A stretch of 64,000 nucleotides of DNA from Dethiosulfovibrio faecalis (GTDB lineage Bacteria; Synergistota; Synergistia; Synergistales; Dethiosulfovibrionaceae): positions 124,001 to 188,000 of the forward strand of contig NZ_JAKGUE010000002.1 of assembly GCF_021568795.1 (NCBI RefSeq), written 5' to 3'. Shown one piece after another: positions 31,696-42,409 of this stretch. The notes below the pieces were generated by a model that was not told the DNA's origin, searched no databases, and saw only the letters and a list, made by a program, of their open reading frames with translations. How positions within the stretch are numbered: position 1 is the first letter of the stretch; each line of letters opens with the position of its first letter. The position numbers and the translations under genes were made by a program.

Positions 31696-31722
31696 TTAGC
31701 ACTCACCTGCATAGAGTGCTAG
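31696..31722 (+). promoter_or_regulatory. CIRCE operator (HrcA binding site)
   Basis: TTAGCACTC-N9-GAGTGCTAG matches the CIRCE consensus TTAGCACTC-N9-GAGTGCTAA at all but the last base. HrcA, encoded immediately downstream, represses through this site, and GroEL is known to promote HrcA activity in other bacteria. Confidence 0.96.
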
Positions 31723-33404: not shown

Positions 33405-35222
33405 ATGGCAAAAGTAGTAGGAATAGACCTGGGAACGACCAACAGCTGTATCGCGGTTAAGGAAGGCGACAACGTAACGATCATCCCCAACTCGGAGGGA
33501 GCCAGGACCACCCCTTCCGTGGTGGCTTTCACCAAAGAGGGAGAGAGACTGGTCGGTCAGCTCGCCAAGAGGCAGGCCATCGTCAACTCGGACAACACGG
33601 TGATGTCCATCAAGAGGCATATGGGGACCGACTACACCGTTTCCGCCGGAGGGAAAAAATACACCCCTCAGGAGATCTCCGCGATGATCCTTCAGAAGAT
33701 GAAGAGGGACGCCGAGGAGTATCTTGGAGAGGACGTCAAGCAGGCGGTCATAACCGTGCCTGCCTATTTCACCGATGCTCAGAGACAGGCCACCAAGGAT
33801 GCCGGAGCCATCGCCGGTCTTGAGGTGCTTCGTATCATCAACGAACCCACCGCCGCGAGCCTGGCCTATGGCATGAACAAACAGGGAGAGGCCAAGCTTC
33901 TGGTGTTTGATCTCGGGGGAGGAACCTTCGACGTATCCGTCCTTGACGTTGGAGACGGCGTGTTCGAGGTGTTGGCAACCCACGGGGATAATCAGCTCGG
34001 AGGAGACGACTGGGATATGGCAGTAGTCGACTGGATGGTAGCCGAGTTCAAGAAGTCCGAGGGGATCGACCTTTCCTCCGACAAGATGGCCCTCCAGAGG
34101 CTTCGCGAGGCAGCGGAGAAGGCGAAGATAGAGCTTTCCTCCATGCCGGAGACCTCCATATCGCTGCCCTTCATCACTGCCAATGAGACGGGGCCCAAAC
34201 ACATGGAGCTCTCTCTATCCAGGGCGAAGTTCGAGGAGATAACCTCCGATCTTCTGTCTCGAGTTGTAGGGCCGGTCAAGAGGGCTTTGGAAGACAGCGA
34301 TCTCGACGCTGCGTCCATAGACAAGGTCCTTCTTGTCGGAGGTTCCACCAGGATGCCTATGGTTCAGAGGAAGATAAAAGAGCTTCTCGACAAGGATCCT
34401 ACCAAGGGGATAAACCCCGACGAGTGCGTCGCCGCCGGTGCCGCCATTCAGGGATCGATCATGAGCGGCGACTCGGACAAGAACATAGTTCTCGTCGACG
34501 TTACCCCTCTTTCCCTCGGCATCGAGACTTTAGGTGGCGTCTGCACCAGGATAATAGAGAGGAACACCGCTATCCCCGTGACCAAGAGCCAGATATTCAC
34601 CACCGCCGCGGACGGGCAGACCCAGGTGGAGATAAAGGTACTTCAGGGGGAAAGATCTATGGCGGCGGACAACGTGGTTCTGGGAACCTTCGTCCTGGAC
34701 GGGATTCCCTCCTCTCCCAGAGGTGTTCCTCAGGTGGAGGTGTCCTTCAACATAGACGTCAACGGCATACTCAACGTCAAGGCCACCGACAAGGGAACGG
34801 GCAAGGAACAGCACATAACCATACAGTCCTCCAATCTCAGCAAGGACGACATCGACAGGATGAAAAAAGAGGCTGAGGCCAACGAGAGCGCCGACGCCAA
34901 GAAAAAGGCTTACATAGAGGCGAAGAACGAGGCGGATACCCTGGTCTACAGGACCGAAAAACTCATCTCCGACCTAGGCGATAAGATAACCGCCGAGGAA
35001 AAGGGGGCCATTCAGTCCAAGATAGACGACGTCAAGAAGGCCCTGGAGGGAGAGGATCCCTCCGCTATAGAGTCGGCCTGTTCAGCTCTCAACGAAGAGG
35101 TCCAGAAGTTCTCCACCAGGCTCTACCAGCAGGCGGGTGAACAGCCCGGCGAGGGACAGCAGGCCGAGGGTGGACCGTCCGGAGCTTCGGACGAGACGGT
35201 GGACGCAGAGTTCACCGAATAG
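33405..35222 (+). CDS. dnaK: Chaperone protein DnaK
   Basis: The main Hsp70, using ATP cycles to bind and release unfolded segments. The 605-residue product carries the full set: [15 protein letters not shown], the [20 protein letters not shown] region with [39 protein letters not shown], the linker [11 protein letters not shown]-type ([18 protein letters not shown]), a beta substrate domain and the alpha lid. The C-terminal tail is Gly/Gln/Glu-rich and ends DAEFTE. It is the housekeeping Hsp70; a second, divergent one is encoded at 38670-40241. Confidence 0.97.
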
Positions 35223-35241: not shown

Positions 35242-36375
35242 ATGGCGGCCGGAACGGGACGCGATTACTACGAGATCCTCGGCGTCTCCCGGGAGGCCTC
35301 GGCGGATGAGATAAAGAAGGCCTACCGCCGTCTGGTCAGGCAGTACCATCCCGACGCCAACCCGGGAAACTCGGAGGCGGAGGCCAAGTTCAAGGAGGTC
35401 AGCGAGGCCTACGAGGTTCTCAGCGACTCCAAGAAGAGGGCCCAGTACGACCAATTCGGCCACGTAGGCGAGGGAGGCAATCCCTTCGGAGACATGGGCG
35501 GAATGGGGGATATCTTCGGCGACCTTTTCGACAATATGTTCGGCGGAGGTTTCGGAAGAGGAGGAGCCCGCAGGGACGGTCCCAGAAGGGGGGCGGACCT
35601 AGAGATGGAGCTTGTGATCACCCTGGAGGAGGCGGCCTTGGGAATCACCAAGGATGTCTCGATCCCCAGATGGGAGACCTGTAGCCACTGCGACGGAAAG
35701 GGAGCCGAGCCCGGGTCGGAGGTCCGTACCTGCGAGACCTGTCATGGATCTGGACAGGTCCGAAGGAAAACCCAGACCCTGTTCGGTCAGGCCGTTACCG
35801 TGGGGACCTGTCCCGACTGCGGCGGTTCCGGCAAGGTCTTCGAGAAAAAATGCCACGAGTGCGGCGGTCAGGGCCGTGTCCGTAAAAAGAGGGATCTAAA
35901 GGTCAACGTCCAGGCCGGGGTGGACAGAGGCACGAGGCTCAGGGTCCCCGGTTCCGGGGAGGCCGGTCAGAACGGTGGTCCCCCCGGAGATCTGTATCTG
36001 GTGATAGACGTCCTGCCTCACGAGGATTTTGAGCGTGACGGAATGGACCTTCATCGCAGGCTTCCTCTGCCCTTCCCCCTTGCGGCTTTGGGAGGAGACG
36101 TTACCGTCTCGACCTTGATAGACGGAGATAAAAAAGTTACGGTCTTCCCCGGAACGGAGCCAGGAGAGGTGTTGAGGGTAAGGGGTTGCGGTATGCCCAG
36201 CCTTCGTAATACATCCAGAAGAGGGGACCTCTTCCTCCACACGACCGTGGAGGTTCCGAAGAAACTCACCGATCGCCAGAGAGGTCTGATAGAGGCTCTT
36301 GCATCGGAGATGGAAGTCGATGTCGAGACCGACGGCGGAGGCGTTTTCGAAAAATTGAAAGGGCTATTCAGTTAG
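35242..36375 (+). CDS. dnaJ: Chaperone protein DnaJ
   Basis: The 377-residue co-chaperone of DnaK has a J-domain with HPD ([11 protein letters not shown]), a Gly/Phe-rich segment ([16 protein letters not shown]), four zinc-binding CxxCxGxG-type repeats ([32 protein letters not shown]) and the C-terminal substrate domains. It follows dnaK by 19 bases and ends at a hairpin terminator, closing the HrcA-controlled operon. Confidence 0.97.
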
Positions 36376-36383
36376 CCTGTTCT

Positions 36384-36415
36384 AACGAGGAGGATATCCC
36401 TCCTCGTTTTTTTTG
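36384..36415 (+). terminator. Rho-independent terminator of the heat-shock operon
   Basis: Stem AACGAGGAGG / CCTCCTCGTT followed by TTTTTTTT, 8 bases after the dnaJ stop. Confidence 0.93.
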
Positions 36416-36425
36416 GCGCTCTTGT

Positions 36426-36511
36426 TATAATAGATGGCGACGGTGCCGAAGGGCACTGATCTTGTGGCTGACGGAGCCTGGCCGTTCCAGAGGCACTGCG
36501 GAGGGATTTTT
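36426..36511 (+). promoter_or_regulatory. Candidate -10 and structured leader of prmA
   Basis: A perfect TATAAT at 36426-36431 has a weak -35, which would fall in the preceding terminator's T-run. If used, transcription starts near 36438 and gives a leader of about 75 bases with several hairpins, including GTGCC-GAAG-GGCAC (36443-36456) and GGCT/AGCC around GACGG (36466-36478). No known riboswitch is recognised with confidence. Confidence 0.4.
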
Positions 36512-37378
36512 ATGACTGAGACCGATAGCTACTGGTGGTATATAACCCTGAAAGGACCTGCTGGGCAGGGAGAGGTTCTTCAATCTCTTGCCGAGGCCTC
36601 CGGCTGTATCGGATCGGAAGAGGACGATAAACCTTCTGCCGTCGAGCTTCGAGCCTATTACAGGAGTAACTACGATCTGGGACACTGGATGGAACAGTTG
36701 ACTCCCTTGATGTCCGAGTGGCCCGAGGTCTCCGTCTACGATATGGGAAGACTGGAGAACCGTCAGTGGCACGCCCTCTCGCTGGAGGCGTTCCCCCCTC
36801 TCAACATAGGGGAGAGGTTCGTCGTACTGGCTCCCTGGCACAGGGGCAAGGAGCCGGAGGGAAGGATACCTCTGTACATAAACCCCGGAAGCGCCTTCGG
36901 AACCGGCTATCACGAGAGTACCCAGAACGTTCTGTCACTGATGGAGAAATACCTCTCCCACGAGGCCGCTGTGGCCGATATCGGCTGCGGTTCTGGCATA
37001 CTTTCCATCGCGGCGGCCAAGCTGGGAGCCGGGGTTGTTTACGCCAGAGATCTCGATCCTGCCGTCATGGATGAAGTTCGCTCCAACCTCGAACTTAACG
37101 ATCTCGGCGACGTGCCGGTTTACGTGGAGGAAGGCGATCTGCTAAACGGTTTCGATAAGGTGGTGGACCTGCTCGTCGCCAATATCCTTCTTGAACCTCT
37201 GCTCAAGATGGTCCCTCAGGTTCCGGAGGCGATAGGCGATGCCGGGATCGCCATATTCTCGGGGCTTACTGTCAGGGAGAGGGATACCTTCGTATCCGCT
37301 TTGTCCCGTTCGGGGCTGACTGTTGTCGAGGAGGTCTCCAGCGACGACTGGCTGGGGTTGGCGGTGAAGAAGAGGTGA
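36512..37378 (+). CDS. prmA: Ribosomal protein L11 methyltransferase
   Basis: PrmA trimethylates ribosomal protein L11 with S-adenosylmethionine. I chose ATG 36512 with GGAGGG upstream, giving 288 residues, normal for the family; the frame is open upstream to 36434 but that segment would lie in the leader. The SAM-binding core is VADIGCGSGILSIAAAKLGA, with LDPAVMDEVRSNLELND and the catalytic-region motif VANILLEPL. The preceding PGSAFGTGYHESTQ segment is also typical. It overlaps mtaB by 4 bases. Confidence 0.94.
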   Translation: MTETDSYWWYITLKGPAGQGEVLQSLAEASGCIGSEEDDKPSAVELRAYYRSNYDLGHWMEQLTPLMSEWPEVSVYDMGRLENRQWHALSLEAFPPLNIGERFVVLAPWHRGKEPEGRIPLYINPGSAFGTGYHESTQNVLSLMEKYLSHEAAVADIGCGSGILSIAAAKLGAGVVYARDLDPAVMDEVRSNLELNDLGDVPVYVEEGDLLNGFDKVVDLLVANILLEPLLKMVPQVPEAIGDAGIAIFSGLTVRERDTFVSALSRSGLTVVEEVSSDDWLGLAVKKR

Positions 37379-38673
37379 CGGCTTTTTCCGTTCGAATAAA
37401 GGCACTGGGCTGTCGGACGAACCTCTACGAGGCCGATGCCATAGCCTCGGCCTTCACGAGAGCGGGATGCAGTATCACGGAAGGAAACGATTGGGATGCC
37501 GCCGTGCTGGTGTCCTGCTCCGTAACGGCCGAGGCGGACAGAAAATCGAGACAGATCGTCCGGAGGTTCAGGCGGGCTTCTCCGGAAGGACTGGTCGTTG
37601 CCACCGGCTGCTGGGCCCAGGGAATCTCGGACGATGAGGCAAAGGCTCTTGGGGTGGATCTGCTGGTGGGGAACAGGAGAAAGGACGAGGTCGTTCCTTT
37701 GGTGATGGAGACCTTGAGAGGCGGAGTTCCCCATGGAATCATGGAGACGGTCGCAACCTCGTCTCGTTGGGAGTCTCTCTTTCTTGACAGGCCCAGCTTG
37801 ACTACAAGGGCGTTCCTGAAGGTTCAGGATGGCTGTGATCACTTTTGCAGTTACTGCATAATCCCATTCTTGAGGGGGAGGCCCGTAAGTCGTCCTCTGG
37901 ACGATCTGGAAAGGGAGGTCCGATCGGTGGTCGGATCCGGATGTCCGGAGATCGTCCTGACCGGGGTTCATCTCGGCCTTTATGGCAGGGAAGGAGGTCC
38001 AGGGCTGGCGGATCTGCTGAGAGCGGTCGGAGCGATAGACGGGGTTAAACGTATCCGTTTCGGATCTCTCGAGCCATTTTCCGTGGGAGACGACCTGTTG
38101 GACGCCATGGCCGAGATCGAATCCTTCTGTCCTCATCTCCATCTGCCCCTCCAGAGCGGGGACGATAGGGTCCTAAACGCCATGGGAAGAGGGCACACAG
38201 CAGGTGAATACCTGAGTCTGCTAGACAGAATAAGGTCCGCCATGGGAGAGGATGTCCACATATCGACGGATATTCTGGTGGGTTTCCCCGGAGAGGACGA
38301 TCGAGCCTTTGCCAACACCCTATCGGTTCTGGACCTGGGCGGTATAGGGCGTATCCACAGCTTCCCCTATTCTCCCAGGAAGGGAACGAAGGCGGCCTCT
38401 TTGCAGGACAGACCTCCCAGATCGATCGCAGAGGAAAGATGCAAAACGGTGATAGAAAAAGGCAGGGAACTGCTAGGCCGTTACGTATCCCGCTGGATAG
38501 GCAGGGAGGAGTCTCTGTTGGTGGAGGAGGTCTCCGAGGGTAGGATCTCGGGCTATACGTCCCATTTCATAAGGTTGTCCGCCCTGGGATACGGGGAGGT
38601 AGATGATATAGTTCGGTGCAGGATCACTGGTATGGCCGATGGAGAGCTCCGAGGAGAGGTGATCTTTCCGTGA
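37375..38673 (+). CDS. mtaB: tRNA t6A37 methylthiotransferase MtaB
   Basis: A radical-SAM enzyme that adds a methylthio group to N6-threonylcarbamoyladenosine at tRNA position 37. The GTG start overlaps the prmA stop. The 432-residue product has the N-terminal UPF0004 domain with three cluster cysteines (ALGCRTNLYEAD, VSCSVTAEADRKSRQ, ATGCWAQ), the radical-SAM motif CDHFCSYCIIPFLRGR, and a C-terminal TRAM-like domain. The adjacent prmA means two translation-apparatus modification enzymes are co-expressed. Confidence 0.93.
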   Translation: MTAFSVRIKALGCRTNLYEADAIASAFTRAGCSITEGNDWDAAVLVSCSVTAEADRKSRQIVRRFRRASPEGLVVATGCWAQGISDDEAKALGVDLLVGNRRKDEVVPLVMETLRGGVPHGIMETVATSSRWESLFLDRPSLTTRAFLKVQDGCDHFCSYCIIPFLRGRPVSRPLDDLEREVRSVVGSGCPEIVLTGVHLGLYGREGGPGLADLLRAVGAIDGVKRIRFGSLEPFSVGDDLLDAMAEIESFCPHLHLPLQSGDDRVLNAMGRGHTAGEYLSLLDRIRSAMGEDVHISTDILVGFPGEDDRAFANTLSVLDLGGIGRIHSFPYSPRKGTKAASLQDRPPRSIAEERCKTVIEKGRELLGRYVSRWIGREESLLVEEVSEGRISGYTSHFIRLSALGYGEVDDIVRCRITGMADGELRGEVIFP

Positions 38674-40241
38674 GATCCGGGAGCATCGTATTGGGAATAG
38701 ACCTGGGAACTCGCTATGCCCTTGCGGCGGTATATAGAGACCTGGAAGGTGCCGTCTTGATTCCTAACCGATGGGGAGAGATCAAGACCCCCTCGGTGGT
38801 GTGTTTCGACCGTGGGAAATGGCTGGTGGGGGAGGAGGCACGGCGTATGGTCTCCCGGCCGGATCGTCGTTGTTGGTGGGATGTCAAGCGGCATCTCGGC
38901 TCCGACTGGTATCCCTCCGTAGGTGGCCGGAACCGCTCTGCCCAGGAGATGCTGGTTCCCCTTATCGCTGAGATAAGGGAGGACTGCGAGGCTTTCTTAG
39001 GTCACGTTGTGACCGACTGCGTGCTGACCGTACCTGCTCAGTTCAGTTTTCTCGAGCGCTCCGCCGCCGCTCGTGCCGCCAGAGAGGCGGGATTCGAGGA
39101 GATCCGCATATTGAACGAGCCTACCGCGGCTGCCCTGTTCTGCGAGAGTTCCGGGAGGATACTGGTCTTCGACTTCGGAGGGGGAACCGTAGATCTGTCC
39201 GTGGTGGAGAGAGACGGAGACACCTGGCAGGTCTTGGAGAGCCTGGGTGATTCCTCCGTCGGAGGGGTCGAGTTGGATAAGGTTCTCGTACGGTATTTGG
39301 CCGAGAGACTGGGGATCTCTTTCGAGGAGGACGAACCCATATACGGTCTTCTCTTGGAGGAGGCGGAAAGGCTGAAATGTGAGCTGTCCTTCAGGGAAAA
39401 ACTGACCTGGAATCCGCCTATCCCTCTGGTTGGGGGCCAAAGGGAGCTGTCCCTGTCCAGGGTGGACCTGGAGCGCTTGTTCATGCCCTTGATAAGAAAG
39501 GCGATCGACCTGGCGGTGCTGCTTTGCCGTCGGCACGAACCTCAGAGCGTAGTTATGGTGGGAGGGAGCAGCCGCATCCCGGTTCTCAGGCGTATCTTGT
39601 CGGAGGAGATAACCATACCGGTGAGGATGGGCCGTTGTCCCGACGAGGCGGTGGCACTAGGTGCTGCCATGTACGGGGTCAACGGGGAGAAGCGTCTTCT
39701 GTTGGACGTCCTTTCCGAGAGTCTCGGCGTTATCGCCTTCGACGGTACCCCTGTCCCCATTCTCGGCAAGGGACATCCCCTTCCAGCCAGGGCCGATCGG
39801 GCCTTCCTCAGCGTTTCCGACGGAGACTTTCGAATCAGACTGTATCAGGGTGACCATCTTTCCAAGAGAAGATGCAGGGAGATAGCCCGGCTGGATCTCA
39901 GGGACATGAAGGAGGGCGAGAGGGTGGATCTGAACTTCCGCATAGATTCGGGGGGGCTTTTGAACGTGGTCCTCTCCAGGGAGTTCGGCGATTCCATCCA
40001 TATCGTCCCGATGGAGTTGGGGGTGACCTCTCGCAAAGGCGACGATAAGCTCTCCTTAAGCTCTCTGGAGATGCGCATCGCCAGACTCTCTCCCGGATTG
40101 TCGTCAGCACAGCAGGATAAGATAAACGAGGTTTTCCGAAAGGTCTCCCTGATGCGTGACTTGGAGCCCCTTTTATACGAGGACGGCATTGGCGAGTTGG
40201 CCAGGATGACCTCGGCCTTGGAGGATGTGATCATGGGATGA
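38670..40241 (+). CDS. Divergent Hsp70-family protein
   Basis: A second Hsp70, distinct from DnaK. GTG 38670 overlaps the mtaB stop. The 523-residue protein has an intact-looking ATPase domain: VLGIDLGTRYALAAVYRD, TVPAQFSFLERSAAARAA, EPTAAALF, FDFGGGTVDLSVVERDGD and VVMVGGSSRIPVLRRIL. The substrate part is shorter than in DnaK: a beta domain with SESLGVIAFDG and GGLLNVVLS, then a reduced helical lid of about 65 residues, with no long acidic tail. It overlaps the following J-domain gene by 4 bases, so it probably works with that dedicated partner. It has no CIRCE site, so heat control is not indicated. Clients are unknown. Confidence 0.9.
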   Translation: MRSGSIVLGIDLGTRYALAAVYRDLEGAVLIPNRWGEIKTPSVVCFDRGKWLVGEEARRMVSRPDRRCWWDVKRHLGSDWYPSVGGRNRSAQEMLVPLIAEIREDCEAFLGHVVTDCVLTVPAQFSFLERSAAARAAREAGFEEIRILNEPTAAALFCESSGRILVFDFGGGTVDLSVVERDGDTWQVLESLGDSSVGGVELDKVLVRYLAERLGISFEEDEPIYGLLLEEAERLKCELSFREKLTWNPPIPLVGGQRELSLSRVDLERLFMPLIRKAIDLAVLLCRRHEPQSVVMVGGSSRIPVLRRILSEEITIPVRMGRCPDEAVALGAAMYGVNGEKRLLLDVLSESLGVIAFDGTPVPILGKGHPLPARADRAFLSVSDGDFRIRLYQGDHLSKRRCREIARLDLRDMKEGERVDLNFRIDSGGLLNVVLSREFGDSIHIVPMELGVTSRKGDDKLSLSSLEMRIARLSPGLSSAQQDKINEVFRKVSLMRDLEPLLYEDGIGELARMTSALEDVIMG

Positions 40242-41263
40242 CGAGGCTTACAGCCAGCGAGTGTTACTCCGTGCTTGGGCTTCCTGCCGGGGCTCCCTGG
40301 TCGGAGGTCAAGTCGGCTTTTAGAAAGCTCGCCCGTCGTACTCACCCGGACGTAGGAAAAGGCGTAGAAGAGGGCGATTTCGAGCGGATCTCCGAGGCCT
40401 ACATGGTTCTCAGGGATATGTTCCGTTCCGAAGGGACCTTCAAAGAGGATCCGGCGGATAGAGGGAAGGCAGTGGATTTCAGGAAGTTTATGGATCCCCT
40501 GGTGAGGGCTTCTTCCTGGGTTTCGAGGACCGTCGGCGATATCTCCAGAAAAAGACGGGAAAAGAGGGAAAAAAAGGAACGCCTTATCAGGGAAGATCGG
40601 CTGAGGAGAGCTAAAAAGATAGATGACATACTATCAGGGACGGAGATCCAGATAGATTCGTTGCTCACCAGGGTCGACAGATCGGGGGGAGTATCGGAAA
40701 GACAGAGGTTGCTTAGAAGACTTAAGAGTGCCTTGCCCGAGGTCAGAGGACTGGCTCTCCAGGGGTTGAAGGACTCTCTGTCCTCTCAGGAGGTCCTGAC
40801 AGCACTGGAGGAGAGCATCTCCCTCTATGGCCTGGTCGAGGACGGTGTCGATGTTGTCGTCTCCATTTCCGATCCTATGAGTTCTCTGAGGCTGGCAATG
40901 GCGGCGGCTCCTCATTTTGGGGATATGACGTTGGGAACGGCGCGGAAATACCTTCGATGGCTGAGAGCTCTTCCCGGTGGCCCCGCGATATACGTTGGAC
41001 TTCAGGACCCGGTCTCCTCTCAGGTAGCTGGATTGCTCGTCTCTCACTGGCCGCAGGATCAGTCCTTTCTTTCTGAGTCTCGGGTGTCTTCGCTTTTGGA
41101 GAGGGATCAGGAGGATCTATTGATCCCCTTGCTCAGACAGCTATATCGGAGAGGGTGTCCCAGGGGGTTTCTGCCCCGAATAGAGGAAATTTCCCAAAAT
41201 TCCCCTTCTCCTGCGGTAAAAGCTTGGTCTCGTGCTATTGTATGTCGGAGCACAGTAGTATAA
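40238..41263 (+). CDS. J-domain protein with C-terminal helical-repeat region
   Basis: The 341-residue protein begins with a J-domain (TASECYSVLGLPAGAPWSEV, RKLARRTHPDVGKG with the essential HPD, ISEAYMVLRD). A highly charged helical linker follows at about residues 105-135 (KRREKREKKERLIREDRLRR). The rest (about residues 150-341) is alpha-helical with a HEAT-like look (LPEVRGLALQGLKDSL, DPMSSLRLAMAAAP). There are no Cys-rich zinc repeats or Gly/Phe region, so it is not a DnaJ paralogue of the usual type. The overlap with the divergent Hsp70 gene suggests they form a specialised pair. Confidence 0.85.
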   Translation: MTRLTASECYSVLGLPAGAPWSEVKSAFRKLARRTHPDVGKGVEEGDFERISEAYMVLRDMFRSEGTFKEDPADRGKAVDFRKFMDPLVRASSWVSRTVGDISRKRREKREKKERLIREDRLRRAKKIDDILSGTEIQIDSLLTRVDRSGGVSERQRLLRRLKSALPEVRGLALQGLKDSLSSQEVLTALEESISLYGLVEDGVDVVVSISDPMSSLRLAMAAAPHFGDMTLGTARKYLRWLRALPGGPAIYVGLQDPVSSQVAGLLVSHWPQDQSFLSESRVSSLLERDQEDLLIPLLRQLYRRGCPRGFLPRIEEISQNSPSPAVKAWSRAIVCRSTVV

Positions 41264-41325: not shown

Positions 41326-41673
41326 GTGAGGTCTTTGGGTCATGATTGTCCCTTTTGTGCGATAGTAGCAGGAGAATCGAAGGCGGAGGTCGTCTGTGAA
41401 AACGATCGTTGTCTCGCTTTCTGGGATATATCCCCCCAAGCCCCCCGTCATGTCCTGATCGTTCCGAAGGAGCACGTGCCTTCTGTCGATCAAGTGGAGG
41501 ACCCGACCCTCTGGATTTCCATCATGGCTGCGGTCCGGGAAGTCGTTAACCGAATCTCTCCGGATTCAGGATACCGGCTCGTCGTCAATTGCGGCGAGGA
41601 TGCCGGTCAGACAGTCCCCCACCTTCACGTCCACCTGCTGTCTGGTCGTCCAATGGGATGGCCTCCGGGATAG
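41326..41673 (+). CDS. HIT (histidine triad) family hydrolase
   Basis: HIT proteins hydrolyse AMP-lysine or other nucleoside phosphoramidates. GTG 41326 follows GAGAGG; a TTG at 41335 is an alternative. The 115-residue product has the family start [20 protein letters not shown], the middle [12 protein letters not shown], and the catalytic H-x-H-x-H triad in [17 protein letters not shown]-like element at 41259 lies upstream at the end of the J-protein gene. The next gene, rpsU, starts about 30 bases later and is likely in the same transcript. Confidence 0.94.
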
Positions 41674-41704
41674 GCGTCGGTGGAGAAGAAAGGAGGGAAC
41701 GGAT

Positions 41705-41884
41705 ATGACGACGATTGTACGACGTGACAACGAGTCCCTTGAGGACGCCCTCAGGCGGTTTAAGAGGGACGTCTCCAAGACGGGAGTCCTTAGGGAGGCT
41801 CGCCAGAGGGAGCATTACGAAAAACCCAGCGAGGCCAAGAAGCGTAAGCGCCAGGAATTGGCCAAGAAACGCCGTAGAAAGTAA
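41705..41884 (+). CDS. rpsU: Small ribosomal subunit protein bS21
   Basis: S21 helps mRNA engagement in 30S initiation. The frame is open upstream, but ATG 41705 (with AGGAGG about 13 bases upstream and GGAACGG nearer) gives the normal 59 residues: [20 protein letters not shown] and a very basic tail ending KKRRRK. It is followed by a strong terminator. Confidence 0.96.
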
Positions 41885-41926: not shown

Positions 41927-41941
41927 CGAGGAGGAATGACC

Positions 41942-42409
41942 GTGAGATGTCCTAAATGCAAGGCTTCGGAGACCAGGGTTATAGAGACCAGGACCGCCGA
42001 CGAAGGGCGTATCGTGAGGCGCAGAAGAGAATGTCCTCAGTGTTCCTCCAGGTTTACCACCTACGAGAGAGTCGAGGAGAAAAAGGTCATATGGATCTCC
42101 AAAAAAGACGGTCGTAGGGAGGCCTTCGACAGGGAGAAGATCTTTCGCGGAGTGAGGAAAGCCTGCGAGAAGCGCTCGATTTCCCTGGAAAAAATGGAGG
42201 AGGTCGTCTGCAAGGTGGAGGACGGGCTTTTGGCCGCCGGAGCCGGCGAGATACCTAGTTCAATAATCGGAGAACTTGTCATGGAGGAGCTGGCCGAACT
42301 TGATAAGGTCGCTTACGTCCGTTTCGCCTCGGTCTACAGGGAATTCTCAGACTTGGCCAGTTTTCAGAGGGAGATATCCGATATTCTGGATAGGAAGCGA
42401 AATATATAA
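41942..42409 (+). CDS. nrdR: Transcriptional repressor NrdR
   Basis: NrdR senses ATP/dATP and represses ribonucleotide reductase genes. I chose GTG 41942, 7 bases after GAGGAGG, because NrdR proteins start with the zinc ribbon (RCPKCKASETRVIETR, then RRECPQCSSRFTTYERVE); the in-frame ATG 41936 is too close to the Shine-Dalgarno. The 155-residue product has the ATP-cone domain (KKDGRREAFDREKIFRG) and typical C-terminus. It is followed by a terminator. No ribonucleotide reductase gene or clear NrdR box is in this window. Confidence 0.96.
   Translation: MRCPKCKASETRVIETRTADEGRIVRRRRECPQCSSRFTTYERVEEKKVIWISKKDGRREAFDREKIFRGVRKACEKRSISLEKMEEVVCKVEDGLLAAGAGEIPSSIIGELVMEELAELDKVAYVRFASVYREFSDLASFQREISDILDRKRNI

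Follow-up and report, generated by a model that had tools for sequence, protein, structure and literature searches.

Within a 64,000-nucleotide stretch of Dethiosulfovibrio faecalis DNA (contig NZ_JAKGUE010000002.1, positions 124,001 to 188,000; hereafter the window), a divergent Hsp70 gene and a J-protein gene form a pair that recurs across the phylum Synergistota. Sequence comparisons and structure models suggest that the pair is a phylum-specific two-gene Hsp70/J-protein machine and that, in the window's genus, it would act as a dedicated, ATP-driven pair whose J-protein reads the client through a predicted alpha-solenoid; we favor this reading with some caution. The Hsp70 gene (38670-40241, + strand) begins with GTG and encodes 523 amino acids (aa), the J-protein gene (40238-41263, + strand) begins with ATG and encodes 341 aa, and the two open reading frames share 4 bases (ATGA). 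A first-pass annotation of this stretch had described a shortened, divergent Hsp70 overlapping by 4 bases a J-protein that lacks zinc repeats and has a long helical-repeat C-terminal region; the coordinates, frames, alignments and models presented below bear out that description.

Distribution of the pair across Synergistota

The sample comprised 185 Synergistota genomes, analyzed with profile searches, a search for truncated forms, and tallies. To count as full-length members of this Hsp70 line, matches to alignment A4 had to outrank every DnaK (in genome G038 only narrowly, the gene being retained as a J-protein neighbor); J-proteins were A2 matches extending past the J-domain, together with two short genes of family f9 that adjoin the Hsp70 gene. 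The full-length Hsp70 is present in 70 genomes, a truncated Hsp70 in 45, and the J-protein in 113. The first-pass annotation had named, in advance, a failure of the two genes to occur together as the outcome that would count against it; 107 genomes carry both genes and 64 carry neither, while 8 carry only the Hsp70 line and 6 only the J-protein (Fisher test on co-occurrence, 2.6e-33, which overstates the evidence since the genomes are related). In several single-gene genomes (G036, G098, G110 and G155), the Hsp70 or J gene is cut at a contig end. Further, in 63 of the 66 genomes with both genes in the profile-search tally, the genes lie within 800 bases of each other on one strand; of the three exceptions, G020 and G171 have the genes at the ends of two separate contigs, and G103 proved truncated and unlinked.

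Across 84,980 species, the pattern [LIV]GIDLGTRY yielded 31 matches, of which 27 are relatives of this Hsp70, all from Synergistota; the pattern is narrow and may miss distant Hsp70 relatives elsewhere, and the J-protein was sought within the phylum. Both genes are present in order at 25 of these 27 loci; at the remaining two, the sequence stops within the Hsp70 gene.

The ratio of nonsynonymous to synonymous substitution rates (dN/dS) is 0.07-0.20 in eight pairs of intact genes, 0.11-0.22 in four pairs of truncated genes, and 0.22 and 0.15 for the f9 gene pair; both the Hsp70 line, truncated forms included, and the J-protein are under purifying selection. The Hsp70 could instead be a redundant DnaK paralogue drifting to loss with no specific role, as its fast evolution would allow (branches inside the family are several-fold longer than the DnaK branches from the same genomes), along with the 64 genomes without either gene and the decay seen in f9. 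However, dN/dS stays within 0.07-0.22 in all 14 pairs, the two genes are present or absent jointly, seven families contain members of the pair in largely conserved order, and the truncated-form search found no internal stop in 39 matches from genus code g19, making drift to loss very improbable.

The usual order around a full-length pair is hrcA-grpE-dnaK-dnaJ-prmA-(rsmE-like)-mtaB-Hsp70-J-HIT-rpsU-nrdR, with HIT or more absent in several of the fetched regions; bpsA (Pfam PF01861) precedes the Hsp70 gene in f9, f11 and probably f3. The neighbors prmA, rsmE-like, mtaB and rpsU raise the alternative that the pair is a translation or ribosome assembly factor serving ribosome-linked clients, and its position between mtaB and HIT-rpsU is indeed conserved. 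However, the same cluster is kept in genomes lacking both genes, where the empty sites read mtaB-HIT (G113) or bpsA-HIT (G016 and G179), and in g19 and g20 the J-protein has been relocated to other neighbors, yet retained. A prmA-mtaB cluster behind dnaJ is known from Bacillus as well; taken with the pair-less genomes, this makes the neighborhood old and weak evidence for a ribosomal role, which we consider improbable. Assigning a function from the neighbors was dropped, because the cluster stands without the pair too.

Two other arrangements were observed around the J-protein. The relocated g19 gene (loci L100-L102) is followed by a small gene whose product begins like a signal peptide and has PPYVVI as a shared stretch. 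In g29 (L109:8387-9421, - strand, and L110:7771-8835), the order J-HIT-rpsU-nrdR is kept with another gene upstream, and an Hsp70 of this line was not found.

Domains and residues of the divergent Hsp70

The 523-aa protein matches Pfam HSP70 (7.8e-68), and the Pfam match, the residues and a structure model together place it in the Hsp70 superfamily, with a nucleotide-binding domain (NBD), a linker, the beta part of the substrate-binding domain (SBD-beta) and the catalytic residues. Its parts are as follows.

38679-39689, + strand: NBD, about aa 4-340, catalytic residues intact and GrpE-signature segment gone
39690-39716, + strand: interdomain linker, RLLLDVLS region, aa 341-349
39720-40004, + strand: SBD-beta, about aa 351-445, lost in truncated relatives
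40056-40235, + strand: C-terminal three-helix bundle, aa 463-522, retained in relatives without SBD-beta

Residues were surveyed, in DnaK numbering, in an alignment of 38 full-length proteins of this line, with f9 treated separately; 8 short or odd copies among the 47 collected Hsp70s were omitted, and the window's cut copy was replaced by the window's own sequence. The catalytic residues D8, K70, E171, D194 and D201 are invariant, and T199 is present in 37 proteins. The J-docking residues are also largely kept (R167 in 33, N170 in 34 and D393 in all 38). Conversely, the GrpE-signature segment (DnaK 290-295), reported to be deleted in HscA (PMC8215388), is missing in 37 of the 38, the window's protein included, with positions 292-294 (GPK) gone in 36 or 37 at each position. 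DnaK T12 is replaced by R (37 proteins) or K (1), and D148, named among the residues that couple substrate to hydrolysis (PMC8215388), by F or L in every protein. Moreover, about 25 residues are missing at DnaK 508-534, which covers lid helix A and the start of helix B, and the tail is absent; 67-79 residues follow DnaK position 502 in this line, compared to 127-140 in DnaKs.

The window's Hsp70 is equally distant from DnaK, HscA and HscC (27-29% identity). It scores well below the cut-offs of the NCBIfam equivalog models of DnaK (219.9 bits where 648 are required, and 215.6 where 822.55 are) and HscA (197.2 bits where 708.55 are); compared to HscC, it has 523 aa where 550-580 aa are expected, at 28% identity, the tree holding a single HscC on a long branch. 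Residues 5-450 of the structure model can be aligned to DnaK in its ATP state (Z about 42, root-mean-square deviation (rmsd) 2.3, 441 residues), and the last three model helices (463-522) come after a low-confidence stretch. In a tree of 43 rows, a subset picked for spread, the line forms its own clade with 100/100 support and long branches.

Descent from an f11-type DnaK copy is possible at most: one tree of 35 rows puts the two on the same side of a branch (98/98), the 43-row tree, which included E. coli HscA and HscC, does not, and both carried a long-branch warning. The second Hsp70 of f11 (L094:8560-10272, - strand; L095 and L096) is itself DnaK-like, with 570 aa, 55-56% identity to DnaK and the GrpE signature kept; a HEAT-containing J-protein and then HIT come after it, as in the window, and in L094 bpsA stands ahead of the set. 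In f10 (L097, L098 and L099), an extra DnaK-like gene lies at a different place, beside a DnaJ-like protein of about 300-320 aa.

Architecture of the J-protein

The 341-aa protein matches Pfam DnaJ (1.1e-11). The DnaJ zinc domain was found by Pfam in the window's dnaJ and not in this protein, which, having a J-domain with HPD and no zinc domain, belongs to class C. An AlphaFold2 model (mean predicted local distance difference test score 87.8) shows the J-domain, then a helix of 60 residues, then a solenoid built from about 12 helices.

40256-40423, + strand: J-domain, aa 7-62, with HPD at aa 36-38
40502-40681, + strand: predicted single long helix, aa 89-148 (AlphaFold2 model)
40688-41254, + strand: predicted HEAT/ARM-type alpha-solenoid, aa 151-339 (AlphaFold2 model and fold alignment, with Pfam HEAT matches in relatives)

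VIA-align placed ARM solenoids at Z of about 11-12.6 (at Z 12.6, rmsd 5.9 over 186 aligned residues), a similarity that by the tool's own notes may reflect only a common arrangement; the alignment fits a modeled solenoid and says nothing of the J-protein's function. Foldseek, queried with the model, had no match reaching E 0.001, and Pfam HEAT had no match in the window's J-protein itself. Among 26 J-protein members, HEAT_2 matched 4 and HEAT matched 5 (Pfam, E 0.1 or better), with HEAT_2 reaching 3.3e-24 and 2e-26 in two J-proteins of the outlying family f11. HPD was examined in 97 J-proteins and is kept in all of them: 60 of 60, plus 37 of 37 from lineages with a truncated Hsp70 (34 by script, three read).

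Truncated and decayed relatives

In 45 of the 185 genomes, the Hsp70 lacks the linker and SBD-beta and keeps the C-terminal helix bundle. These forms, found in genus codes g19 (43 genomes), g20, g26 and g28, have 312-436 aa and consist of an NBD remnant and the bundle; all 29 distinct truncated genes examined sit directly after mtaB (for example, L149:2127-3095, - strand). Among 15 that were aligned, the linker is absent and D194 present in all, and K70 is kept only in g28; across the 45 genomes, the catalytic residues are mostly lost. True loss of the Hsp70 in 47 J-protein genomes without an Hsp70 match was rejected as an explanation, as one prmA-mtaB locus held a truncated gene; a search with that gene reclassed most of the 47 and moved G103 from full-length to truncated. 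In an NBD tree of 31 rows, a subset chosen for spread, the truncated forms are not grouped and a single origin is rejected (approximately unbiased test, p 0.008; two long rows call for caution); by this tree, SBD-beta was apparently lost more than once.

These forms raise a further alternative, in which the main role of the Hsp70-line protein is structural or regulatory, as a subunit that holds the J-protein through its C-terminal bundle, the J-protein delivers the client to ordinary DnaK, and the ancestral ATPase and clamp are being shed. The recurrent loss of SBD-beta, the purifying selection on the truncated forms, and the retention of HPD alongside them, though most of these partners lack the J-docking residues and all 15 aligned lack the linker, would all be expected of such a subunit. 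The five catalytic residues, however, are intact in all 38 full-length proteins outside f9, which implies continuing selection for ATP use in the lineage of the window. We regard the subunit alternative as unlikely, though it is the most serious of those considered here.

Proposed mechanism and points against it

In the two-gene machine that we favor, the HEAT-type solenoid of the J-protein would bind a particular client or assembly, and the J-domain would dock on the Hsp70 and trigger ATP hydrolysis. The Hsp70, with its reduced lid, would then act on the client without GrpE and reset by fast nucleotide exchange, as in HscA/HscB and probably HscC/DjlC; its C-terminal bundle would serve as a conserved interaction element and not as a lid. 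We describe the pair in the window's genus as ATP-driven because the catalytic residues are intact there. The gene layout, the joint occurrence and linkage, the selection, the conserved residues, the predicted folds and the repeated loss of SBD-beta beside a retained bundle are observed; we infer from them that the two proteins form a complex, that the solenoid binds the client, that the Hsp70 works independently of GrpE and what the bundle does. Binding of the bundle to the J-protein is a guess. The repeated loss of SBD-beta with the J-protein kept hints that the J-protein may do the client gripping. Overall, the comparisons fit a view in which the J-protein and the Hsp70 C-terminal bundle would be the most durable parts, while the peptide clamp and the ATPase can be shed.

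Several observations weigh against this mechanism. The co-occurrence counts are uncorrected for relatedness among the genomes. G099 (97% complete) has the Hsp70 and no full J-protein match, other genes coming after the Hsp70, while G104 and G105 (80% and 77% complete) have the J-protein and no Hsp70 match. The neighbors prmA, mtaB and rpsU seem to be an old cluster and give no indication of the client. In f9 (G173 and G174; L093:7741-9318 and L092:3061-4638, - strand), a full-length Hsp70 lacks K70, E171, D194 and D201, and its J-protein has 140 aa with the solenoid lost; this family therefore does without a solenoid for client binding. Most truncated Hsp70s have lost the J-docking residues, making it unlikely that the J-domain drives them; DnaK is the probable partner of the J-protein in those lineages. 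The first-pass annotation had proposed a private, specialized chaperone machine whose J-protein would select the client through its repeat region, which is supported in part: the conserved pairing and the loss of the GrpE signature agree with specialization, whereas the truncated partners and the unbroken retention of HPD beside them mean that "private" cannot be the whole story.

A broader proposal is possible, if doubtful: bacteria would have a fourth Hsp70 line, found in Synergistota alone, that can do without the peptide clamp. The client would be carried by the solenoid, with the Hsp70 held to the J-protein via its C-terminal bundle, and g19 would be an end state in which the Hsp70 is a pseudo-ATPase subunit of a J-protein complex passing clients on to DnaK. 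The window's line matches the models of neither DnaK nor HscA. Repeated loss of the clamp with the J-protein kept would offer a natural series for studying Hsp70 roles besides peptide clamping, and for asking if the choice of client lies with J-proteins and not with Hsp70s.

Locus and control region

The surrounding features of the window are listed by position.

31696-31722: CIRCE (the HrcA operator), 1 mismatch, upstream of hrcA
33405-35222, + strand: canonical dnaK, in the hrcA-grpE-dnaK-dnaJ operon
35242-36375, + strand: canonical dnaJ, in the same operon
36384-36408, + strand: terminator-like hairpin and T-run, directly 3' of dnaJ and before prmA
36426-36431, + strand: TATAAT inside TGTTATAAT, between dnaJ and prmA, a possible extended -10 promoter of prmA-mtaB-Hsp70-J
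36512-37378, + strand: prmA, start placed by eye at ATG 36512, upstream gene of the Hsp70/J unit
37375-38673, + strand: mtaB, upstream gene of the Hsp70/J unit, its end overlapping the Hsp70 start by 4 bases
41326-41673, + strand: HIT protein, downstream neighbor
41696-41884, + strand: rpsU, downstream neighbor
41936-42409, + strand: nrdR, downstream neighbor, the order of these three being kept in many relatives

The heat-shock operon, placed by the first-pass annotation 2.3 kb upstream of the pair, ends 2295 bases from it (dnaJ stop at 36375 to Hsp70 start). The same annotation held that the pair has neither a GrpE nor a CIRCE of its own and belongs to a prmA-mtaB operon outside HrcA control, which agrees with what was found: one GrpE gene in the genome, a single CIRCE in the window, ahead of hrcA, and a terminator and a promoter-like site in between. 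Allowing up to 3 mismatches to the consensus, the genome has one more CIRCE, on contig C16, for a count of 2. The clear Hsp70s of the genome are this gene and one dnaK; open reading frames of 355, 406 and 673 aa give weaker matches, and the genome has four J-domains.

By script, TGNTATAAT occurs in 4 of 19 dnaJ-prmA gaps, all from the window's family (the three relatives are G109, G111 and G113). Under a loose criterion, some hairpin precedes a T-run in 16 of the 19, and none does in the other three (G017, G173 and G179). Transcription of prmA-mtaB-Hsp70-J separately from the CIRCE-controlled operon is likely in the window's family from these signals, with read-through possible; separate transcription of the Hsp70/J unit is less sure in other families.

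Comparison with known Hsp70 systems

A review recognizes three prokaryotic Hsp70 types, namely DnaK, HscA and HscC (PMC8215388). In a survey of dnaK copies, 17.4% of 23 Synergistetes genomes are reported to have two dnaK genes (PMC11019930); the survey covers DnaK-type (PRK00290) genes, and the window's Hsp70 falls short of the PRK00290 model. Searches of open-access papers listed none on this pair, and we do not claim its absence from print.

E. coli HscC with DjlC/DjlB likewise combines a short Hsp70 and a dedicated class C J-protein encoded nearby, and HscC is also reported to lack the GrpE signature (PMC8215388). However, the window's Hsp70, at 28% identity, is no nearer to HscC than to DnaK or HscA, stands in a clade of its own (100/100), and has its lid deletion at another place; DjlC/DjlB are reported to be tail-anchored (PMC8215388), in contrast to the predicted HEAT-type solenoid of the window's J-protein. 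HscA/HscB share the lost GrpE-signature segment, the dedicated J-protein and the specialized Hsp70, but HscA has 616 aa compared to 523 aa, the window's protein lies far below the HscA model cut-off, and no isc genes are present in the listed stretch around the pair. DnaK, of the DnaK/DnaJ/GrpE system, has the same Hsp70 fold as judged by the model alignment with its ATP state, whereas the window's line is missing the GPKH segment, lid helix A with the start of B, and the tail, and has replaced T12 and D148. Finally, the animal protein HSPA13/STCH is an Hsp70 without a substrate-binding domain (PMC9691929), as the truncated relatives are; it is described as an active ATPase (PMC9691929), whereas K70 is missing from those g19 and g20 forms that were aligned, and the bacterial forms, unlike HSPA13, keep the C-terminal bundle and co-occur with a J-protein.

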